Shown one piece after another: positions 469 through 39,544 of a DNA stretch of 46,887 nucleotides (within the stretch, counting starts at the first letter, position 1; each line of letters starts with the position of its first letter). The notes beneath the pieces were generated by a model that saw nothing but the letters and a program-made list of their open reading frames with translations, was not told where the DNA came from and searched no databases. This stretch comes from a virus: positions 1-46,887 of the IMG/VR virus record IMGVR_UViG_3300042554_002321, one strand, 5' to 3'. The translations under genes and the position numbers were made by a program.

Positions 469-1641
469 TCAAACCCCCAGATCTTTGATGGCGGCGCTGA
501 ACCCAGCACCAATAGATTCCCAGCGATACTCCGGACGCTGAGTGACGTTATAGCACGCCTCAGCCACTTCGTTGTATGTATGTAAATCGTGGTACAAATC
601 GTCCAGAATCCGAGCCGCCTGCGTCACGTTGATCAGACCGCGTTCGACACCAAGATCTTTATCCACAACCCATGTGGAAATGGGGATAAGTTCGGCCGCA
701 TCCTTCCAGATGTCTTGGCACGCTGTGTGGTGCGGAACAACCTGCGGTTTTTTACAGCCCGCATGTTCGAAACTAACAAGACCCCAGCCTTCTCCATCGG
801 ATGTATTAATACCGACGTCGCAGGCGTTATAAATTGTATTGAGCAATTCGTCCGGCGGTGCGCTCAGGTAGTTGATGTTTGCCGAAGTCAAAATCAGTCG
901 ATTGGCGTCATCCAGACCACGGCGCTGCATCTCGTGTTTAAAGAGAGGCAGAATATCCCAGCCCATGTCTTTCGTACTCATGTGCAGGTACAGCATGGTG
1001 TCGGGTTTGTTGACCGCAAACTCGGCGAACGTCTTGATCGTCAGGTCAATGCGTTTACGCGGTTGATTTCTGTTCGCATTAAGAACGACGAATTTATCTT
1101 CGGGGATACCAATCCGCTTGCGGGCTTCAGCTTTGTCCATCGGGTAGAACCGACCTGTGTCAACCCCGTGGGGGAGCACAGCCAGTCGCGGAGCATCTGC
1201 GCCGCACTTCATGACGCGCTCGGCAGAGGGAACAGTGAAGGTGACCGCTAGATCCCAGTGCTTGATATGACGTAGCATGTCGGGGAAGTAGCTCTCGCTA
1301 TCCACCGGGAAGTACGCGATGAACTTGAACCCGATCTGGTCTTTAAGGAACTGACAGCGTTCCCAAAACTGATTTACAACCCAAATGTCGTTCAGGCAGA
1401 TGATGACGTCTGGTTTCTCTTTGTCGATGATTTCGGGGATCCGGCCGATGCCGAACCGATCACCAGATCCTGAGGGACACGCCGGATATACCTTGTACGG
1501 ATGCTCGTGAGGATCGCCAGTATAGTTAATCCCCATCACCACGATCTCGTGCTGATCTTTGAGGATGTTCAAGATGCTGTGAGTAACTCTTGCGAATCCT
1601 GTATTACTACAGGCATCGCCATACCAAAGGATTTTCGCCAT
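469..1641 (-). CDS. GT4-type (GT-B fold) glycosyltransferase
   Basis: A 390-residue GT-B glycosyltransferase that would transfer a nucleotide-sugar residue to an unknown acceptor in the cytoplasm. The N-terminus MAKILWYGDACSNTGFARV is the first Rossmann strand of the family. A mid-protein NANRNQPRKRIDL segment fits the donor-domain entry, and an E-x7-E motif (EGWGLVSFE, E284 and E292) matches retaining GT4 enzymes. A longer reading from a TTG at 1665 adds eight residues that do not fit the fold, so the ATG at 1641 is preferred. It is divergent from the terminase and abuts the propeller gene on its downstream side. With the sugar enzymes at 3221 and 5902 it suggests glycosylation of virion or host glycans; acceptor unknown. 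Confidence 0.8.
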   Translation of the reverse strand: MAKILWYGDACSNTGFARVTHSILNILKDQHEIVVMGINYTGDPHEHPYKVYPACPSGSGDRFGIGRIPEIIDKEKPDVIICLNDIWVVNQFWERCQFLKDQIGFKFIAYFPVDSESYFPDMLRHIKHWDLAVTFTVPSAERVMKCGADAPRLAVLPHGVDTGRFYPMDKAEARKRIGIPEDKFVVLNANRNQPRKRIDLTIKTFAEFAVNKPDTMLYLHMSTKDMGWDILPLFKHEMQRRGLDDANRLILTSANINYLSAPPDELLNTIYNACDVGINTSDGEGWGLVSFEHAGCKKPQVVPHHTACQDIWKDAAELIPISTWVVDKDLGVERGLINVTQAARILDDLYHDLHTYNEVAEACYNVTQRPEYRWESIGAGFSAAIKDLGV

Positions 1642-1695
1642 GCAAACTCGGTAAATCGAGTACAATTACTATAACAGTGCTATCAGCTTATAGAC
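1642..1695. promoter_or_regulatory. Divergent promoter region between glycosyltransferase and terminase
   Basis: This 54-nt gap separates two divergent genes. On the plus strand TACAAT (1661-1666) and an overlapping TATAAC just after it resemble -10 boxes for the terminase. Reading leftward the same AT-rich stretch gives TATAGT. No clear -35 or Shine-Dalgarno is visible. Inference only. Confidence 0.35.
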
Positions 1696-5849: not shown

Positions 5850-5901
5850 GTGCTTTTTATAGCAAATCTTGCTAAGCTGTGCAGGCCCGTTTCGGCCTTC
5901 C

Positions 5902-6744
5902 ATGCTCTTTGATTGTTTTCTCTATTTCAACGAAGCTGAGCTGCTCGAACTTCGCGTAGAAATTCTTAAAGATATTGTTGACGGCTTCATCATTACCGAC
6001 GCCAACCGGACTTTTAAGGGCGACGAAAAACCGTTCACTTGTTTAGAGACGATTCGAAAACTCGGTCTGCCTGAAGATAAACTTCAAGTGCTGCACGTCG
6101 AACTGCCGCCGCCGGATATCGCTCCTAACCCTTGGGTCCGCGAATACGCTCAGCGCGACGCTCTTGCCGTGGGTATGCGGATGACGCCGCCGGATTCGGT
6201 CTTCTTCTTCTCTGATGTCGACGAGATTCCTAAGCCGTCTGCTCTTTTAGAAGCTGTAGAGCTCGCTAAAGAAGATCCTGCACGTTGTGTGCGTCTTTCC
6301 ATGCCGATGATGTACGGGCGGGCAGATCTTCGTGTTATGAGCCCGGACGGGGATAAGACGAAACCCCCGACCAACTGGACCTGCGGGACCGTCGTTCTTC
6401 ACGATCATCTGGATCAAACTCTTTCGGAGATTCGCCAGAACCCCAACGATCTTGTGGTAGGAGACTGTGATGCAGGGTGGCATTTTAGTTGGATGGGAGG
6501 GCCTGATCGCCTTAAGCGCAAACTGACGTCTTTCTCGCACTGTTATGATGACATTCCAAATGCTCATGCTCCTGCATACAGCGAGGAGATGCTGAGCTAT
6601 TTAGATAATTACAAAGCGGAGGCGGGCGGCACAGATCCGCTCGGTCGCAAAGATCATCTGCTGACCTCGTATCCTCATGATCTTTTACCGCCAGAATTGT
6701 TTAAACTAGAACGAGTGAAGGAGTACCTTCTTCCGGACTCCTGA
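5902..6744 (+). CDS. GT17-type glycosyltransferase
   Basis: 280 residues. The N-terminus LFDCFLYFNEAELLELR, the strand GFIITDANRTFKG, the NPWVREYAQRDAL segment and the metal site FFFSDVDEIPKP (DVD at 105-107) match glycosyltransferase family 17, whose best-known member adds bisecting N-acetylglucosamine in animals; bacterial and phage members have unknown acceptors. A longer frame from a TTG at 5869 adds 11 residues unlike the family, so the ATG at 5902 is used. It lies between the small basic genes and the portal. Context suggests modification of virion proteins or host surface glycans. Confidence 0.82.
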   Translation: MLFDCFLYFNEAELLELRVEILKDIVDGFIITDANRTFKGDEKPFTCLETIRKLGLPEDKLQVLHVELPPPDIAPNPWVREYAQRDALAVGMRMTPPDSVFFFSDVDEIPKPSALLEAVELAKEDPARCVRLSMPMMYGRADLRVMSPDGDKTKPPTNWTCGTVVLHDHLDQTLSEIRQNPNDLVVGDCDAGWHFSWMGGPDRLKRKLTSFSHCYDDIPNAHAPAYSEEMLSYLDNYKAEAGGTDPLGRKDHLLTSYPHDLLPPELFKLERVKEYLLPDS

Positions 6745-6762: not shown

Positions 6763-9003
6763 ATGCCTGCAGATCTTTTAAGCGTCCGGGGACGATTCAG
6801 TGAGATTCTGGAGGCAGCTCGGACTCAGGACCGCTCAAAGCAGTCCGCCACGATGGTGGTACTGAGTCATGTGCAGCAGATGACCCTTCTTATGATCAAG
6901 AAGGGTCTGTTTTTTTACTGTGAACAGGATACGTATAAAGCTCGTAGTGAGTTTCTAGATGATCTGATAAAACTTAATAAACTTGATATCCGTTTCCCGG
7001 CTATCGTTCGGAATTTTTTGATTGACGGTTCGGGTCTTTTCTATTTCAGGCCCGATCCCAAGCTGAAGTACCAGATTTACTTTTTTAACAAAAACCAGTA
7101 TCGGGTTTACCACGATCTCAACGGAGAGATCGAAGAGGTCGTAATCCTTTATTCCTACAAAGTTAAGAACGGTAACTTAGGGCTGCCTTCGAATACTTAC
7201 GGGCAGAACAAAAGGTATGTCCGTATCTCGATTACGGCCGAGATGATCACAGAGTACGAAGCCGACACGGAGCTGAGTTTTGACTTAGAGCCGGGCTCTG
7301 TCATTACTCCCCGAAACAGTCGGCCAAATACGCTGGGGTTTATCCCCGCCGTGGAGGTTCTGAATAAGCCAAACGCCAGCGGTACTGAAGGCGAAGGTGA
7401 ATTCGAGCCGTTCATGCAGCAGATCGTTCTGCATGATCAGATGATGCAGAATATCGCCAAGAACATCGAGTTCTTTGGTAATCCGACTCTGATCAGTTCG
7501 CGTCCGCGTAGTGATCTGGTGGAGGCGAGTGATACCGATCGTAACTTCCGTCCGACGATCAGCAGTCAAAGCGGATTTGGCGGTTTAGATTCTCCTTCCA
7601 CGAGGGTTTCAGATCCGTTTGGGTCGCAGTCTGGTATCGGGGGTCTTCGAGTTCCTCGAATTATTGCCAACGTAGAGCCGTCGGATCGGGTTGGTTACAT
7701 GACTCCTGACCCCGTAAACGGGGACATGAATCGATATGCGTTGTTACTACGAGAAGAAATTCGAACCGCACTCGGCGGCGTTGACGAAATATCGATTAGC
7801 GCCGGTGCCACTGCGACGGAAATTAAGGGCCTTATGGGTCGTGCTCAAGCGACTGCTCTTCGTAAAAATAAGAGTTTTTTGAGCTACGGCTTCTGCCGAT
7901 TGCTGGAGATGATTATTTATCACCAGGAGCAGATTTTCCGCGAGAGTTTTATTTCTGTCATGGGTTTGACTCCTCCCAAGGAGCCGAAAGAAGAAACTCC
8001 GGAAGCAGCGGAGCGTTATCAAAAGAAGCTGGCTAAGTACGAGCAGGATGTAGATCTTGCTATTCAAACGGCCCTCTCTGAAAACAAAGTACCTGGTGGA
8101 GTTTTTGGTCTTCCGCCAGACGGAGATAGAGAAGTAACGTATCGATTCCAAGGCGATGTTTATGAAGACACCGCTTACGACATCAACCAGAAATCGATCG
8201 TTGTTCGAAATCTTCAGGAGCTAGGTGTTGACAGCGTGGAAGCGCTGCGTTACTTGTTCCCGGATAAAAGTGATTTAGAACGAGCGGAAATGTTGAAGGG
8301 TTTCCCCTTCAGAATGATTCAACAAACGCAAGCCGCACTACAAAATTTCCTGCTAACATTAAATCAGCTGATGCAGTCGCCGCACCCTCTTGCGCCGACC
8401 CAGCCCTTAGCGGCAGATCCGAGGTTAAATATAACGCCTCTCCTCTACCGCACATTCGATCACCTCGCGCAAGAACTAACCTACTCGGGCAGCTATGAGC
8501 CAAGCGATCCCAGCTTCGACCCCGAGCCCGGTCTCCCCGGCAGTAGCGGCGCCCCAGGCGGCCTTCTCCCCGGATATGGGCTCAACCGTCTACCCTCAGT
8601 GGGTGGCGCAAACCCCTACCCCGGCGGTAGCTTCGGCAACTACAGCCCAAGCGCCGTCGCCGGCACAACTGGCTACGGTCCCTTCTATCAACAGCCAGTC
8701 CAGCCAGTTTCCGTCAGCCTCCTCCCCGAGCAACCCATGGGAGGCAGCGCTGGGCAGCCTGGACCGGATCGTCTCCCGGCTCTCCCCGTCCCTCAGCCAG
8801 ACAGCATCGTTAGCGCAGCCCCAGGTAGCGGCGCCGGATATTCAACAGAGCAATCTGGCTTTACAGGCCCAACAGCCCTGGGCTTACCAACCCCCTACGG
8901 TTCAGCCGACCTTATCCAACAGCGTCTATACGACCCCAATTTCCTCGCCGACTTCTACGGCGCAGGAGCCGCAGTTAAGCCAAGCAAGCGCCGCCGTCGT
9001 TAA
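6763..9003 (+). CDS. Portal protein with long Pro/Gly-rich C-terminal extension
   Basis: A 746-residue portal, the dodecameric channel at the head vertex. Supporting features are position after terminase and before scaffold/capsid, an N-terminal helical region (residues 1-60), the beta-rich clip/wing region (QIYFFNKNQYRVYHDLNGEI near 110) and a long helix with the ISAGATATEIKGLMGRAQAT motif near 345-365 that fits the portal stem/crown. Residues from about 578 onward are low-complexity Pro, Gly and Ser ending in KPSKRRRR; this whole tail is encoded by the same DNA as the first 169 codons of the next gene in another frame. Family portals rarely need this tail, so it may be a by-product of, or constrained by, the overlap. 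Confidence 0.85.
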   Translation: MPADLLSVRGRFSEILEAARTQDRSKQSATMVVLSHVQQMTLLMIKKGLFFYCEQDTYKARSEFLDDLIKLNKLDIRFPAIVRNFLIDGSGLFYFRPDPKLKYQIYFFNKNQYRVYHDLNGEIEEVVILYSYKVKNGNLGLPSNTYGQNKRYVRISITAEMITEYEADTELSFDLEPGSVITPRNSRPNTLGFIPAVEVLNKPNASGTEGEGEFEPFMQQIVLHDQMMQNIAKNIEFFGNPTLISSRPRSDLVEASDTDRNFRPTISSQSGFGGLDSPSTRVSDPFGSQSGIGGLRVPRIIANVEPSDRVGYMTPDPVNGDMNRYALLLREEIRTALGGVDEISISAGATATEIKGLMGRAQATALRKNKSFLSYGFCRLLEMIIYHQEQIFRESFISVMGLTPPKEPKEETPEAAERYQKKLAKYEQDVDLAIQTALSENKVPGGVFGLPPDGDREVTYRFQGDVYEDTAYDINQKSIVVRNLQELGVDSVEALRYLFPDKSDLERAEMLKGFPFRMIQQTQAALQNFLLTLNQLMQSPHPLAPTQPLAADPRLNITPLLYRTFDHLAQELTYSGSYEPSDPSFDPEPGLPGSSGAPGGLLPGYGLNRLPSVGGANPYPGGSFGNYSPSAVAGTTGYGPFYQQPVQPVSVSLLPEQPMGGSAGQPGPDRLPALPVPQPDSIVSAAPGSGAGYSTEQSGFTGPTALGLPTPYGSADLIQQRLYDPNFLADFYGAGAAVKPSKRRRR

Positions 9004-9448
9004 CCACTTCGGCCTCGAAGCGCCTGCGATCTTGAATCAGTACTCCACCACCCTGGAGGATGCGCTGATCCAACAGCATCAGACTCTGGAGCAAATTGCC
9101 ACCCGTGGCATGGCTATGGAGCAGATTCTGACTGATCCTGATCATCTGGCTGACTACACCAACCGGTTCTTCACCGAGGTGTATCCCACCGATCTTCGCA
9201 CTGACGAACAGATCGCTGCCGATAACGCTCGCACTGCTCTCCAACAGCAGTCCTATACACCCAACTACGATCAGGTGCCTGCTGTGCCTGCCGCTGCTAC
9301 CGGCGGTCAGCGTACTCAAGACCCCAACGCGCAGTGGGAACAGTTTGGCCAGGTTATGAACCAAGCTCCTGATCAAGCTTGGCGTTACCTGAACAACATG
9401 TCTCCTGAGTCTCTGCGAGCCAAGCTGTTGTTCTTGGATCAAGCCTGA
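8495..9448 (+). CDS. Putative scaffolding protein, overlapping portal 3' end
   Basis: 317 residues, frame +1 relative to the portal, sharing 509 nt with it (8495-9003). The N-terminal 170 residues are Pro/Ala/Ser/Gln rich and disordered. From about residue 170 the protein turns helical and acidic (LEDALIQQHQTLEQIATRGM, then NRFFTEVYPTDLRTDEQIAA, ending MSPESLRAKLLFLDQA), the usual character of phage scaffolds with a capsid-binding helical C-terminus. Position between portal and capsid agrees. The non-overlapping half uses the codon style of the strongly expressed capsid gene. Start ATG at 8495 has no strong Shine-Dalgarno; an internal start is possible, but codons before 9003 are open throughout. 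Confidence 0.72.
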   Translation: MSQAIPASTPSPVSPAVAAPQAAFSPDMGSTVYPQWVAQTPTPAVASATTAQAPSPAQLATVPSINSQSSQFPSASSPSNPWEAALGSLDRIVSRLSPSLSQTASLAQPQVAAPDIQQSNLALQAQQPWAYQPPTVQPTLSNSVYTTPISSPTSTAQEPQLSQASAAVVNHFGLEAPAILNQYSTTLEDALIQQHQTLEQIATRGMAMEQILTDPDHLADYTNRFFTEVYPTDLRTDEQIAADNARTALQQQSYTPNYDQVPAVPAAATGGQRTQDPNAQWEQFGQVMNQAPDQAWRYLNNMSPESLRAKLLFLDQA

Positions 9449-9481: not shown

Positions 9482-9504
9482 CGCATGGTGGACGAGTCTT
9501 TTTA

Positions 9505-9531
9505 CCCCCGTCTGGACAACGGGGGTTTTTT
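9505..9531 (+). terminator. Rho-independent terminator after scaffold gene
   Basis: CCCCCGT (9505-9511), a 7-nt loop and ACGGGGG (9519-9525) are followed by six T. This is a textbook intrinsic terminator closing the portal-scaffold transcript. Confidence 0.9.
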
Positions 9532-10871: not shown

Positions 10872-11996
10872 TGACAATCCAGCCGCCTCTCTGAGTAATC
10901 GGAGAGTGAAAACCCGGTGAATTGCTGGAAACCCTTCTTAAAAGCTTCAAACCCTACAACGTAGCTGGCGACGGCAAGCGTGAATGGTTAAAAAGTTTGA
11001 AGTCTGGGGCAATCAGCAGCCAAGCCTCTCAGGAATGAGTGGAAGGTTCATCGACTAGGACATACGATCCAGACCGGATTATGAAGTCCACTAGCGCCGG
11101 GGCTCCCAGTATTGTTCGTAAGCTTTAAGCTTTCGCTCAATACCTAGACTACATCCTCCGTAAATAGCCTGTATGGCTTTTGCGTCCCTGATGTAACCAG
11201 GAATAGAATACAAATCTTTTCCTGTTTTAGTTACTTCTGATTTAATCGGAAGACTTAAACCACTAACATCGAGGATCCAAGTCTGAAGCTGGTAAGCAAA
11301 CTCAAGAGAAGCCGTGGTGACTTTAAATCGACGTTCTGTAACGGATCCGTCGCCGTCCCACACTCCTCTTAAAAAGTCCTTTTTAAACTCACGGAGGTCA
11401 CAAGAAAGTTTTAAAGTGTGGGATTTGTTAGGTGTTATGCCTAACTTAATTAAATCCTCCACCATGAACTTTTTGCTAAGAACTAAAATTTTTTGAGGGG
11501 CATGTTCCTTTCCATTAGTTTTAGGAATCTTTGTCTTAAGTTCAGGAGCACCTTCACCTAAGAACTTTCTAAACTGCTCTAAAATGTTACAGTCTTGTTC
11601 TTTTAGAGCTATCCTCGCTGCTGTTAATCTAGGACTTATGTTTCCATCTGCCGCTAACAAACCTAGAAAGTAAGCTTTATCGGGTGTATCAATGACCTCA
11701 AAATAGCGGTCATTGTACTCCATAAAAGAGTAAGTCTCTCCTGATTTTCTCTTGCGTTTACCGGTTTGTTCAAAGTAAGATGGAATACCTAGTTTCTTCC
11801 TGGCTTTATAAAAAGTCACCATCGTAACGCCTAGAACTTTCGCTGCTTCAACATCTGGCATTTTTGAAGCCAGTTCTTGAACAACAGAAAAGTCTGGATC
11901 AAAACGTTCGAAACGTGGCATTGGGAGCAAGATATAGTCAGTGCCCTAGGGATGAGAAATCTAGGGAACGGATTCGGACTCAAGAATCCTAGCACG
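10872..11996 (+). ncRNA. Group I self-splicing intron in the capsid gene
   Basis: All four conserved core elements are visible in order. P is GAATTGCTGGAAA (10919-10931), Q is CAATCAGCAGCC (11010-11021), R contains GGTTCATCGACTAGG (11045-11059) and S contains GAAGTCCA (11083-11090). P4 pairs TGCTG (10923-10927) with CAGCA (11014-11018); P7 pairs GACT (11053-11056) with AGTC (11085-11088); P8 is ATCC/GGAT. The exon end GAGCCGGU can pair with GCCGCCUC (10882-10889) as P1 with one mismatch and the required final U-G. Near the 3' end CCCTAG/CTAGGG (11944-11949, 11961-11966) forms a P9-type hairpin. The 3' boundary after G11996 is inferred from frame. The endonuclease gene fills the P8/P9 side on the opposite strand. 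Confidence 0.85.
11091..11930 (-). CDS. LAGLIDADG homing endonuclease, antisense inside the capsid intron
   Basis: 279 residues. Two LAGLIDADG helices are clear: AYFLGLLAADG (residues 86-96) and FLRGVWDGDG (186-195), each ending in the catalytic acid. The N-terminal 60 residues carry a helix-turn-helix (DVEAAKVLGVTMVTFYKARK) that may help DNA recognition. Such enzymes cut intron-less alleles and drive intron spread. The gene runs opposite to the capsid gene, so it must be expressed from its own leftward promoter; its stop codon touches the S element of the intron core. An alternative start is the ATG at 11921. Confidence 0.92.
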   Translation of the reverse strand: MLPMPRFERFDPDFSVVQELASKMPDVEAAKVLGVTMVTFYKARKKLGIPSYFEQTGKRKRKSGETYSFMEYNDRYFEVIDTPDKAYFLGLLAADGNISPRLTAARIALKEQDCNILEQFRKFLGEGAPELKTKIPKTNGKEHAPQKILVLSKKFMVEDLIKLGITPNKSHTLKLSCDLREFKKDFLRGVWDGDGSVTERRFKVTTASLEFAYQLQTWILDVSGLSLPIKSEVTKTGKDLYSIPGYIRDAKAIQAIYGGCSLGIERKLKAYEQYWEPRR

Positions 11997-13020
11997 TGTT
12001 GTTCACGACTTTTCAAAACAGCCTGGCCAGACCGTTCAGCTTGATCGTTATCGCTTCTGGGGTAATCCCGGCAGCAAGGAATCCCGCGAGCGTACTGCAG
12101 AGCAGACCATTGGTACTGCTAACAGCCGCAACATCGTGAAGGACAAAGTGCTGGTGACTCTTAAGGAGTACACCGGTCCTGCTGATCCGTCCGATCCCAC
12201 TCAGCCGAGCACCTTTAAGATTGCTCGGGAAACCCTGATCACTGCACAGCGCCTGCTGCTGGACACCGGTAACCTCACCGCTTTCCACCAGTCCATCGGT
12301 TCGCTGACTCTGCTCGACGACTATCGTCGTTGGCGTGACCGGGTGTTCATTAACGAACTCCTGAAAGCAGTTTCTAAAGGCCAAGCTTCCGACACCCAAG
12401 GTGGTTACTACTACCCTGGCGATCTTGCCGTCGGCGCTCTGACCTACGCCAACGCCGAACAAGCCAAGTTCGACGTTAAGGACGACCTGCTCCGCGTGGT
12501 GAAGAGCCTGCGTAAGCGTAACGTTCCTACTTATCAGGACGGTTTCTATCGCTGTGTTTGCGATCCTACCTTCCTGATGCACCTGCGTCAGAACAGCGAC
12601 TTCCGTGAAGTGGCTCGTTATCCTGGCAACGGTCAGATCAACCCCCTCATGTCCGGTATGCAGCCCAACGCTGCTATCTACATGGGTCAGGGCTTTGGTC
12701 AAGCCAGCTTTGTGGCTGGTGAGCCCATCATGCCCACCGGTTTCGTGTTCGAAGGCGTTCGCTTCTTCGAATCGACCAACATGCCCTCTCAGAGTCAGAC
12801 TGCCACCATCGGCGGCACATCGAAGTCTTACGAGAGTGCAATCGGTATGTTCTTCGGTCCCCAGAGCGTGGGCGTCGGTATCGGCGGCAACAACGCTCAG
12901 GTGCTTCTGAATAACAACGACGACTTCAGCCGTTTTATCATGATGATTTGGAGCCTGTACGCAGGTTTCGAACTTCTGAACGCTGATTTCGCCACCGTTG
13001 CTTACTCCTTTAACGCTTGA
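11997..13020 (+). CDS. Major capsid protein, exon 2 (HK97-fold, N4-gp56-like)
   Basis: Exon 2 begins in frame with exon 1 and gives a spliced protein of 371 residues. The frame is open back to 11965, well before the first ATG at 12136, and the extra residues (VHDFSKQPGQTVQLDRYRFW) look like authentic capsid sequence. Later segments such as YRCVCDPTFLMHLRQNSDF and REVARYPGNGQINPLMSGM resemble N4-gp56-like/HK97-fold capsid proteins. Codon use is strongly biased toward C/G-ending codons, as expected for the most abundant virion protein. It assembles the shell around the scaffold. The next gene follows with a strong ribosome-binding site. Confidence 0.87.
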
Positions 13021-13035
13021 TAGGAGGTACTAACG

Positions 13036-13914
13036 ATGGCGATTAACCCTAATCAAGTGCAAGTTGCCAAGATTTATCCTGGTAACTACACCAACGTCCT
13101 GCGTTACTGGCACGACGAAAAGTCCGTTGTTTTCAACAACGAAAACGGAACCTCCGAAACTCTGACCAACCAGCCTATTGGTGGTCCTGTCGGTGTGGTG
13201 TTCCGTCCCGGCTGGATTGCTCAACAGGCAATCGGTTATGTTGATCTGTCTTATCAGGCCAACGGTTCCGTTAACCAGCTTGAGTCCTATGCTCAACCCT
13301 ACGGTTCTGGTCTGAACGGGTCTAACCAACCCTTCAGCAGTGCCACTGTGATCATCCCTTCCCCGGATTATCACAAAGATGTCCGCGCCGACATCGCTGA
13401 TGGCATTTCGGTGCCTTCAGGTTCTTTTGTGTACCGCGCTTCTCTGCGTGTTGATGGCGGCGACGTAATCAGCAGCGGCGTGGGCGGCGGCAGCGCCACC
13501 CCTCAGCTCAGCCTGGTTCCCGCAGTGAGCCAAGGTCTTCGCAGCGACGGCACTGTTGTGTCCGGTCAGTTTGGCGTGTCTGTAACCGGCGCTAACAGTC
13601 GCATTGAGAACGGTAGCAACGCTTCGGTGAACATCATCGACGCCAGCAGGATGTCTGCGCTTACTGCGGAGACCACCTGGAGGCTGTTTGCTACTCGCAA
13701 CTTGGGCGGCGTTGTCGCTTCCGGTCTGGCTCTGGCTTCCGGCACTTTCGATCCTCGTGCTCGATCCGGTCGACTTGCCGGTAAGGATAAGGCTCTCGCT
13801 ATCTGCGAAGTCTGTTGGATCGTGCCCGACACCGCACCTAAGCGCGATGATCTGGCCCTCCAGCCCGGCGGCGTGGTGGAATCCACCATCTACACTTCGA
13901 CCGTTCCTTCCTGA
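13036..13914 (+). CDS. Abundant virion protein, possibly decoration or tail-tube protein
   Basis: 292 residues. It is the only gene here with a near-perfect Shine-Dalgarno (AGGAGG at 13022-13027, nine bases from ATG), and it shares the capsid gene's codon bias, so it is probably made in large amounts. The sequence is beta-rich with many Gly, Ser, Val and Asn residues, and it lies immediately after the capsid gene and before a strong terminator. I do not recognise a family; decoration protein, minor capsid or tail tube are all possible. Confidence 0.72.
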   Translation: MAINPNQVQVAKIYPGNYTNVLRYWHDEKSVVFNNENGTSETLTNQPIGGPVGVVFRPGWIAQQAIGYVDLSYQANGSVNQLESYAQPYGSGLNGSNQPFSSATVIIPSPDYHKDVRADIADGISVPSGSFVYRASLRVDGGDVISSGVGGGSATPQLSLVPAVSQGLRSDGTVVSGQFGVSVTGANSRIENGSNASVNIIDASRMSALTAETTWRLFATRNLGGVVASGLALASGTFDPRARSGRLAGKDKALAICEVCWIVPDTAPKRDDLALQPGGVVESTIYTSTVPS

Positions 13915-37874: not shown

Positions 37875-38315
37875 ATGTCCGAGCTAACCCGCGACCTCGA
37901 ACTTAACGCCGTTTTGGCCTCGGGCGTGGCGTTCCCGGGCCAGCAGCGTAGCGAGTCAACTAACTTTCAACAGCGCCGGACAGTCAACGCCAGCGGCGTG
38001 GTGATCAGCACCGCTAGTGCCAAATACGACACTGCCGACGGTAAGTACGGCATCAGCGACTATTACCAGTTCCAAGCCACGGCAACTGGTGTCATGCAAG
38101 TCAATATTCGTGATCAAAACAGTCTGCGGAGTGTTATTGTTCTTGACTCCGCCGGCGCCGAAGTTATGACCGCCGAGCCTTCGAAGCTCAGCCGTCGCAA
38201 TAATGCGGTAACGACTCAGCGGATTGGAACATCCGGTACGTACTACATGTACATCCAGACCGGCGGCCGTAACTCTGCCGAGTATCGGATCGACGTCGAC
38301 ATCCTTAATCAGTGA
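37875..38315 (+). CDS. Beta-sandwich (PPC-like) virion or secreted protein
   Basis: 146 residues. YYQFQATATGVMQVNIRDQN and TSGTYYMYIQTGGRNSAEYR resemble the bacterial pre-peptidase C-terminal (PPC) beta fold, often used for glycan or cell-surface contact. Asn/Ser rich and few charges in the first half. The stop overlaps the endolysin start, so the two are coupled. Function is inferred, possibly a carbohydrate-binding accessory. Confidence 0.6.
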   Translation: MSELTRDLELNAVLASGVAFPGQQRSESTNFQQRRTVNASGVVISTASAKYDTADGKYGISDYYQFQATATGVMQVNIRDQNSLRSVIVLDSAGAEVMTAEPSKLSRRNNAVTTQRIGTSGTYYMYIQTGGRNSAEYRIDVDILNQ

Positions 38316-39544
38316 GACTTTCTCAAACGGGTCTCGACCTGATCAAGGAGTTCGAGGGTCTGCGCCTAACGGCGTATCCGGACATCGGCGGCGTGCCCAC
38401 GATCGGGTATGGCACGACCGGCCCGGATATCAAGCTCGGTACGGAGATCACCAAGGCTCAGGCCGAGGATCTGCTGCGCAAAGATGTAGCTGCGTTTGAG
38501 GGCGGCGTCTCAGATTTAGTCAAGGTTGCGATTAACCAGAACGAGTTCGATGCGCTGGTTTCGTTTAGTTACAACGTTGGATTGAGTGCTTTGCAGTCAA
38601 GCACTCTGCTGCGTCTTTTAAATGACGGGGCGGATCGCACGGTTGTCGCATCTGAGTTTCTCCGTTGGGACAAAGTCGGCGACAAACCTATCGAAGGGTT
38701 AACACGGCGGCGCAAAGCGGAAAGAGACTTATTCTTAGCTAAAGTCAAGAACCCCATGCTCGCCGCTTCGATCGTCGCCAAGCAAGACACTTGGCTGAAA
38801 CGCAAGCCGATTCAAAGTTCGGAGCTGGCTGCTGAGGAAAAACTGTTTGTACCCAACGGCAGCGCGTGGGAGTGGACAGAGATTCGGCAGTACCCCGGCG
38901 AGCAACACCAGCGGGTGTTTCTGCAGGCCAGACCAGATGCTGAGTGGTGGTTTTGGCCTGAGCATTTCAAGATTATTAACGACACAAGGACGCAGGAAAC
39001 GCCGCCGAAGTTGGACGGTGAGATTAAGCTCGTTGTGCCGTACTTTAGCCAGCGGGATAACGCTAAAGACCCTATGCGCACATGCTTCAGTAGCAGCTGT
39101 GCGATGTTGCTTGCGGCGCTTGACCCTGACGCTATTAATAACGATGATGAGTTTATAAATGAGGTCTTTAAATACGGCGATACCACAGAAGCTTCTGCGC
39201 AGTTACAAGCCCTAAAGCACTTTGGTGTTGACGCTAAGTTTGTTCAGAACTGGAACTGGGCCAAGGTCGAGTCTCAACTGAGACTGGGTATACCGGTGCC
39301 TATCGGGGTACTTCACAAAGGCCCGGTGGCGAATCCTACCGGCGGCGGCCACTGGTTAGTAGTCGTAGGTATTACGGCAGACGGCACTAAGTTCTGGGTG
39401 CACGATCCGTTCGGCGAGATGGATCTGATCAATGGAGGATACCCCAGCACAAACGGTAAGTATCGACTGTATTCCAAGAAGAATCTTGGTTTGCGCTGGA
39501 TGGTGGAGGGCGAAGGCTCAGGCTGGGCTATAGTTGCAAAATAA
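38312..39544 (+). CDS. Endolysin: GH24 muramidase fused to C39-like cysteine peptidase
   Basis: 410 residues from GTG. Residues 1-150 match T4-type lysozyme (GH24): GLDLIKEFEGLRLTAYPDIG, with E15, D24 and T30 spaced as in T4 lysozyme (E11, D20, T26), and a RRRKAERDLFL C-terminal helix. Residues about 150-240 are a linker domain. Residues 240-410 match the C39/papain-like fold: VVPYFSQRDN with Q247, RTCFSSSCAM with C258, GGHWLVVVGI with H347 and VHDPFG with D365. It probably cuts both the glycan and the peptide part of peptidoglycan. Overlap with the upstream stop implies coupling. Confidence 0.88.
   Translation: MRLSQTGLDLIKEFEGLRLTAYPDIGGVPTIGYGTTGPDIKLGTEITKAQAEDLLRKDVAAFEGGVSDLVKVAINQNEFDALVSFSYNVGLSALQSSTLLRLLNDGADRTVVASEFLRWDKVGDKPIEGLTRRRKAERDLFLAKVKNPMLAASIVAKQDTWLKRKPIQSSELAAEEKLFVPNGSAWEWTEIRQYPGEQHQRVFLQARPDAEWWFWPEHFKIINDTRTQETPPKLDGEIKLVVPYFSQRDNAKDPMRTCFSSSCAMLLAALDPDAINNDDEFINEVFKYGDTTEASAQLQALKHFGVDAKFVQNWNWAKVESQLRLGIPVPIGVLHKGPVANPTGGGHWLVVVGITADGTKFWVHDPFGEMDLINGGYPSTNGKYRLYSKKNLGLRWMVEGEGSGWAIVAK

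Follow-up and report, generated by a model that had tools for sequence, protein, structure and literature searches.

The locus described here raises the question of whether one stretch of phage DNA, at the 3' end of a portal gene, encodes two proteins in two frames. The window, i.e., the whole stretch of DNA analyzed, is a virus record of 46,887 bases. An earlier note had placed a portal gene at 6763–9003 and a second gene at 8495–9448, overlapping by 509 nt in different frames, and these coordinates proved exact to the base. We consider it highly probable that this is an old, genuine dual-coding overlap in an S-EIV1-type head-assembly module, in which translation from an independent inner start yields another head protein, which is most likely the scaffold. 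The following features were delineated.

6763–9003, + strand: portal gene, 746 aa, from ATG 6763 to the stop at 9003
8305–8494, + strand: portal stretch with reduced synonymous divergence, directly 5' of the inner start
8495–8497, + strand: ATG of the scaffold-like gene within portal codons, its position being identical in 78/78 clade A loci with a complete portal
8495–9448, + strand: scaffold-like gene, 317 aa, from ATG 8495 to the stop at 9448
8495–9003, + strand: dual-coding overlap of 509 nt, scaffold frame +1 relative to portal, identified from codon-position divergence, overlap-aware selection analysis, and 404/404 entries
8732–8752, + strand: dual motif, scaffold NPWEAAL and portal QPMGGSA on the same bases; the motif pair recurs in clades A–E
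8899–8916, + strand: portal tail motif GSADLI, kept in clades A and B
9504–9531, + strand: intrinsic-terminator-like hairpin with a T run, 3' of the scaffold-like gene
12136–13020, + strand: major head protein gene (phrog_1357, E 4e-19)

Two open frames at the 3' end of the portal gene

Both ORFs lie on one strand, and across the 509 shared nucleotides neither contains a stop, as the earlier note had stated. An in-frame stop is located 18 nt upstream of 8495, and ATG 8495 is the earliest possible start thereafter. The overlap covers the last 170 portal codons.

The portal assignment, previously made from the letters alone, was backed by profile and structure searches. The protein matched phrog_20475 (E 3.4e-158) and phrog_64, "portal protein" (E 6.8e-10); the match to Pfam SPP1_portal was weak (E 0.065). 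AlphaFold2 predicted a folded core of approximately residues 1–572 and a disordered, Pro/Gly-rich tail (573–746) ending in basic KRRRR. The best 50 PDB matches of this model in Foldseek were all portals or portal-containing complexes, with E-values from 1.5e-10 and a probability of 1.00. According to the models, the overlap coincides with the disordered portal tail, since the fold ends at 572 and the overlap starts at codon 578–579, and it encodes the mostly disordered N-terminal half of the scaffold-like protein. The low complexity ascribed to both products was confirmed: both are Pro-rich and predicted to be disordered in the overlap. Directly 5' of the portal gene, a Glyco_transf_17 gene (E 1.7e-16) was found at window positions 5869–6744 (+ strand), and a Glycos_transf_1 gene (E 5.6e-8; 472–1665, minus strand) flanks the packaging genes. 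Elsewhere in the window, a single ORF (38312–39544) combines a phage lysozyme with a C39/C70-like cysteine peptidase domain.

For a fixed portal protein sequence and the codon usage of the clade, the probability that the +1 frame stays open along the overlap was 0.013 for the window sequence and 0.008–0.24 for nine other representatives. Openness by itself is thus only moderately unusual, because +1 stops rarely arise from Pro, Gly, Ser, and Ala codons. It would be compatible with a locus in which 8495–9003 encodes only the portal tail, the second gene begins downstream of 9003, and the openness of the +1 frame results from Pro/Gly-rich codons alone: chance opened the frame in 0.8%–24% of codon redraws, and the GenBank annotation of S-EIV1 shows such an arrangement. 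The comparative evidence presented below is far stronger than frame openness alone.

In the phage collection, Synechococcus phage S-EIV1 alone gave a clear match. Hundreds of relatives were found in viral contigs, and further ones in contigs of MAGs and on a plasmid of Kovacikia minuta. A complete portal was present in 404 locus entries (a few being one contig entered twice), which form 178, 47, 17, and 7 clusters at 95%, 80%, 70%, and 50% portal identity, respectively. The +1 frame was open across the portal 3' end in 404/404 of these entries, over 359–644 nt (median, 524 nt), and the +2 frame for a median of 25 nt only. Both frames were also open in L421. No homologue with one frame broken by stops and the other kept, the finding named in advance as refuting dual coding, was present among the 404 entries. 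The plasmid-borne Kovacikia copy keeps the overlap at 34%–35% portal identity, and the deepest members (Kovacikia-type, with a portal core 35% identical to that of the window, and L363/L421) also carry it. The most divergent exception was L343 (4001–6659), with an open overlap of only 359 nt and a later inner start; its scaffold-like protein contains a tandemly repeated QIADQIAQVYQAQE-like stretch. The lineage is a large group of S-EIV1-type cyanobacterial viruses, and the overlap is kept in every relative found.

As to sources, the 1.2-Mb plasmid pA of Kovacikia minuta CCNUW1 carries the portal, scaffold-like, and major head genes of the lineage (L174, NZ_CP083583.1, 708456–722222), possibly as a prophage or phage-plasmid region in this cyanobacterium. 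Other contigs of the lineage (L163–L173) were binned in MAGs labelled Euryarchaeota, Bacteroidetes, Rhodobacteraceae, and others, and these odd labels probably reflect binning contamination.

Selection on the two frames

Divergence at portal third codon positions was 0.38–0.50 in the portal core of the five clades and 0.13–0.21 over the overlap, i.e., 2.2- to 3.1-fold lower, and recovered to 0.35–0.48 in scaffold-only DNA. Portal first positions, which are scaffold third positions, rose in the overlap to 0.17–0.24 in all five clades. In the same phages, chance ORFs, both antisense and same-strand, within the major head gene and the gene that follows it left third-position divergence unchanged. 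A shift of the codon-position signature in every testable clade, together with the openness of 404/404 loci, points to real dual coding, as the earlier note had supposed.

To obtain overlap-aware rates, isolated differences were classified by their effect in each frame. Portal omega in the overlap was 0.13–0.25 where the scaffold change was nonsynonymous and 0.26–0.59 where it was synonymous; for the scaffold frame, the values were 0.08–0.19 or 0.17–0.40 (overall 0.08–0.40). Within-clade pairs are not independent, and these omegas are therefore effect sizes rather than significance tests; the agreement of five clades carries the selection argument. Changes silent in both frames occurred at 0.12–0.21 per opportunity, close to the core synonymous rate of 0.17–0.22, so there is no general slowdown in the overlap. 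The by-frame dN/dS comparison proposed in advance, run here across relatives, thus gave purifying selection on both the portal and the scaffold frame in five clades, with negative controls. The idea that each low-complexity product can tolerate changes forced by the other was not borne out, both frames being instead under purifying selection. Functional segregation of the two frames was considered and rejected: residue variability correlates positively, not negatively, along the overlap, and the frames are therefore not split into alternating blocks. The dual motif has the general form NP[WY]xxA[FLM] in the scaffold frame and is [EQ][SP][MLVI]xxG[VI]-like in the portal frame in clades A–E.

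These rates bear on both single-frame explanations. If only the portal tail were encoded, neither the 2.2- to 3.1-fold suppression of portal synonymous positions nor a scaffold-frame omega of 0.08–0.40 would be expected, and chance ORFs elsewhere show no such signal. The converse, that only the scaffold-like protein uses 8495–9003 and the portal ends near residue 577 with an incidental open tail, would fit a predicted portal fold that stops at 572 and a distant portal that has no tail (see below). However, an early portal-frame stop occurred in 0/404 entries, portal omega in the overlap was 0.13–0.59, and the GSADL motif and the basic C-terminus are conserved, which leaves this explanation very little probability.

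Inner start and expression of the second gene

Start offsets were counted from the end of the conserved portal stretch [KRQ]E[LIMV][ST]Y. In 400/404 entries the inner start was at −2 (ATG), +1 (GTG), or +10 nt (ATG); of the remaining four, two have an upstream TTG listed first, a third has its start at +16, and that of L343 lies further downstream. A Shine-Dalgarno sequence was strong in clades B, C, and E and in most of the Kovacikia types (K). In clade B, which includes S-EIV1, AAGGAG precedes the inner ATG in 97/97 loci, within portal Lys-Glu codons. The same AAGGAG precedes the inner GTG in clade C (72/72 loci), GAGGT precedes the start in clade E (77/80 loci), and Kovacikia types mostly have AAGGA or GGAG. 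The match is weak in clade D and weak or absent in clade A, to which the window belongs; the DNA around the inner start of the window is strongly conserved in this clade (third-position divergence, ~0.05). The inner gene therefore has its own initiation signal, in the form of a conserved start position with a Shine-Dalgarno sequence in several clades.

In S-EIV1 (KJ410740), the start of AHV82225 is annotated at 59863, 3' of the stop of the portal gene AHV82224, and the first inner ATG (L082, KJ410740.1) is at 59287, inside AHV82224. No conserved start was found 3' of the portal stop in clade B, and for this reason AHV82225 is probably annotated too short, by ~192 codons at the front counting from the first ATG 59287. 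Starts that are not conserved beyond the portal stop, together with the invariant Shine-Dalgarno sequences in clades B and C and the ATG or GTG at the inner start, make it extremely improbable that the portal tail is the only product of the shared DNA. Ribosomal frameshifting by +1 on the portal mRNA, producing a fused portal-scaffold protein in place of the two separate products or in addition to them, would agree with the +1 position of the scaffold frame and the 509 nt over which the frames are jointly open. It is unnecessary given that clades B, C, E, and K have strong, conserved sites for internal initiation, and we find it just as improbable.

The conservation of both frames, their purifying selection, the conserved start position, and the portal fold are shown by the computations, and dual coding with an independent inner start is the preferred interpretation. 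We infer from sequence that both proteins are translated. Some ribosomes would begin at ATG 6763 and make the portal, and others would start independently at ATG 8495 and make the +1 frame product. The shared DNA would then yield the disordered, basic-ended tail behind the portal ring domain and the disordered N-terminal half of the scaffold-like protein, and the message probably terminates at the hairpin 9504–9531 after the second gene. Both disordered parts may extend into the procapsid interior, where portal and scaffold would meet. About 12 portal copies are required, against a far larger number of scaffold copies; the inner start, not reinitiation at a stop 509 nt away, therefore most likely sets the scaffold supply. 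The proposal that the overlap provides a fixed ratio point for the translation of the two proteins is unsupported, since initiation of the inner gene is independent, with a Shine-Dalgarno sequence in most clades, and 509 nt separate this start from the portal stop, making termination-reinitiation coupling very unlikely.

In each of the five clades, portal synonymous divergence was also reduced, to about half or less, over the 190–420 nt preceding the inner start; in L082 the dip is at 7447–7744. Among the clade A controls, the terminase, the glycosyltransferase, and the gene at 13036 had no 3' dip, and the major head gene was low throughout. An extra overlapping ORF upstream of 8495 was rejected, as no frame is open there in all clades. 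RNA structure was likewise rejected as the cause: alifold signals were weak and not coincident between clades. The sole structure to beat 100/100 shuffles was a hairpin of 6 pairs in clade A, near −190 to −175, and it showed little covariation. A search for a sigma70-like internal promoter gave no match on the + strand. A tentative and rather unlikely possibility is that the overlap is maintained by tying together the partners of procapsid nucleation: the portal tail and the scaffold N-terminus would interact and be inseparable by recombination, and the conserved upstream stretch would be a control element setting the amount of scaffold per portal message.

Identity and origin of the second gene and comparison with known systems

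The major head protein gene is located at 12136–13020, so the second gene sits at the position expected of a scaffold gene, between the portal and major capsid genes. The portal, scaffold-like, and major capsid genes are directly adjacent, in that order, in Kovacikia-type phages. In the window, a LAGLIDADG-like homing endonuclease gene (11091–11930, minus strand; PF14528, E 3.5e-12) lies between the scaffold-like and major head genes. In a coarse AlphaFold2 model of the scaffold-like protein (mean pLDDT, 61), residues 1–160 are disordered except for helix 81–95, which is the NPWEAAL region, and residues 163–317 are helical. Known scaffolds likewise combine a helical C-terminal half with a disordered N-terminal half, and from its position and this predicted layout the second product is probably the capsid scaffold. 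The protein had no match to known scaffolds by PHROG, PDB sequence, or Foldseek searches, as would also be the case if the overlap were real and encoded some other head protein, e.g., an internal or minor one. Scaffolds diverge fast, so that a missing match says little, and the gene order and the half-disordered, half-helical layout speak for a scaffold; another head protein is a possible but clearly less favored assignment.

The earlier note regarded one of the two coding layers as probably newly created. The arrangement is common to every relative found, down to 34%–35% portal identity, and is therefore old in this lineage. A distant portal was identified in Acaryochloris phage A-HIS1 (hhalign probability, 95.5%; E 1.4e-8). 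It ends at the equivalent of residue 513, lacks the tail, and overlaps the next gene by 4 nt; this gene is unrelated, and A-HIS1 could not serve as an outgroup for the scaffold gene. Because this portal has no tail, the tail and the overlap look like a feature of the lineage, and the addition of one coding layer to a shorter ancestral portal is plausible. The portal may have been extended over the beginning of the scaffold gene, or that gene may have acquired a start further upstream. Codon-usage dating (Pavesi-like) was non-discriminating: in most clades the RSCU of both overlap frames was almost unrelated to that of the rest.

Gene callers usually dismiss or drop long out-of-frame overlaps in tailed phages. 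Here such an overlap is kept, with clear dual selection, throughout a lineage represented by hundreds of environmental genomes, providing a large natural data set on two essential proteins evolving on shared bases. Recognizing it would put right the annotations of S-EIV1 and related phages, and it makes the interaction and dosage of portal and scaffold a testable question in a group of which one member is in culture.

The closest known system is S-EIV1 itself (KJ410740, AHV82224/AHV82225), which has the same portal, a +1 overlap of 554 nt from the first ATG, and the same scaffold-like protein from the inner ATG. It differs in sequence (41% portal and ~32% scaffold identity to the window) and is annotated with two non-overlapping hypothetical genes. 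In a virus-wide survey, overlaps were common in dsDNA phages, but 84% were shorter than 50 nt, and the largest near-identical overlap common to different families was 185 nt (PMC7017920), compared with ~500 nt kept here at 34%–35% portal identity. No published overlap of portal and scaffold frames was found in the literature searched, the S-EIV1 genome paper being outside its coverage. In the small ssDNA phage phiX174, lysis gene E lies out of frame inside scaffold gene D and is expressed by internal initiation. Both loci have an internal start and a capsid-assembly gene that takes part in out-of-frame dual coding; however, in phiX174 a lysis gene lies within the scaffold gene, whereas here, in a tailed dsDNA phage, the portal tail is laid over the start of a scaffold-like gene. 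In lambda C/Nu3, the scaffold also arises from an internal start within an upstream head gene, but in frame, so that its sequence is common to both proteins, while in the present lineage the offset is +1 and the partner is the portal.
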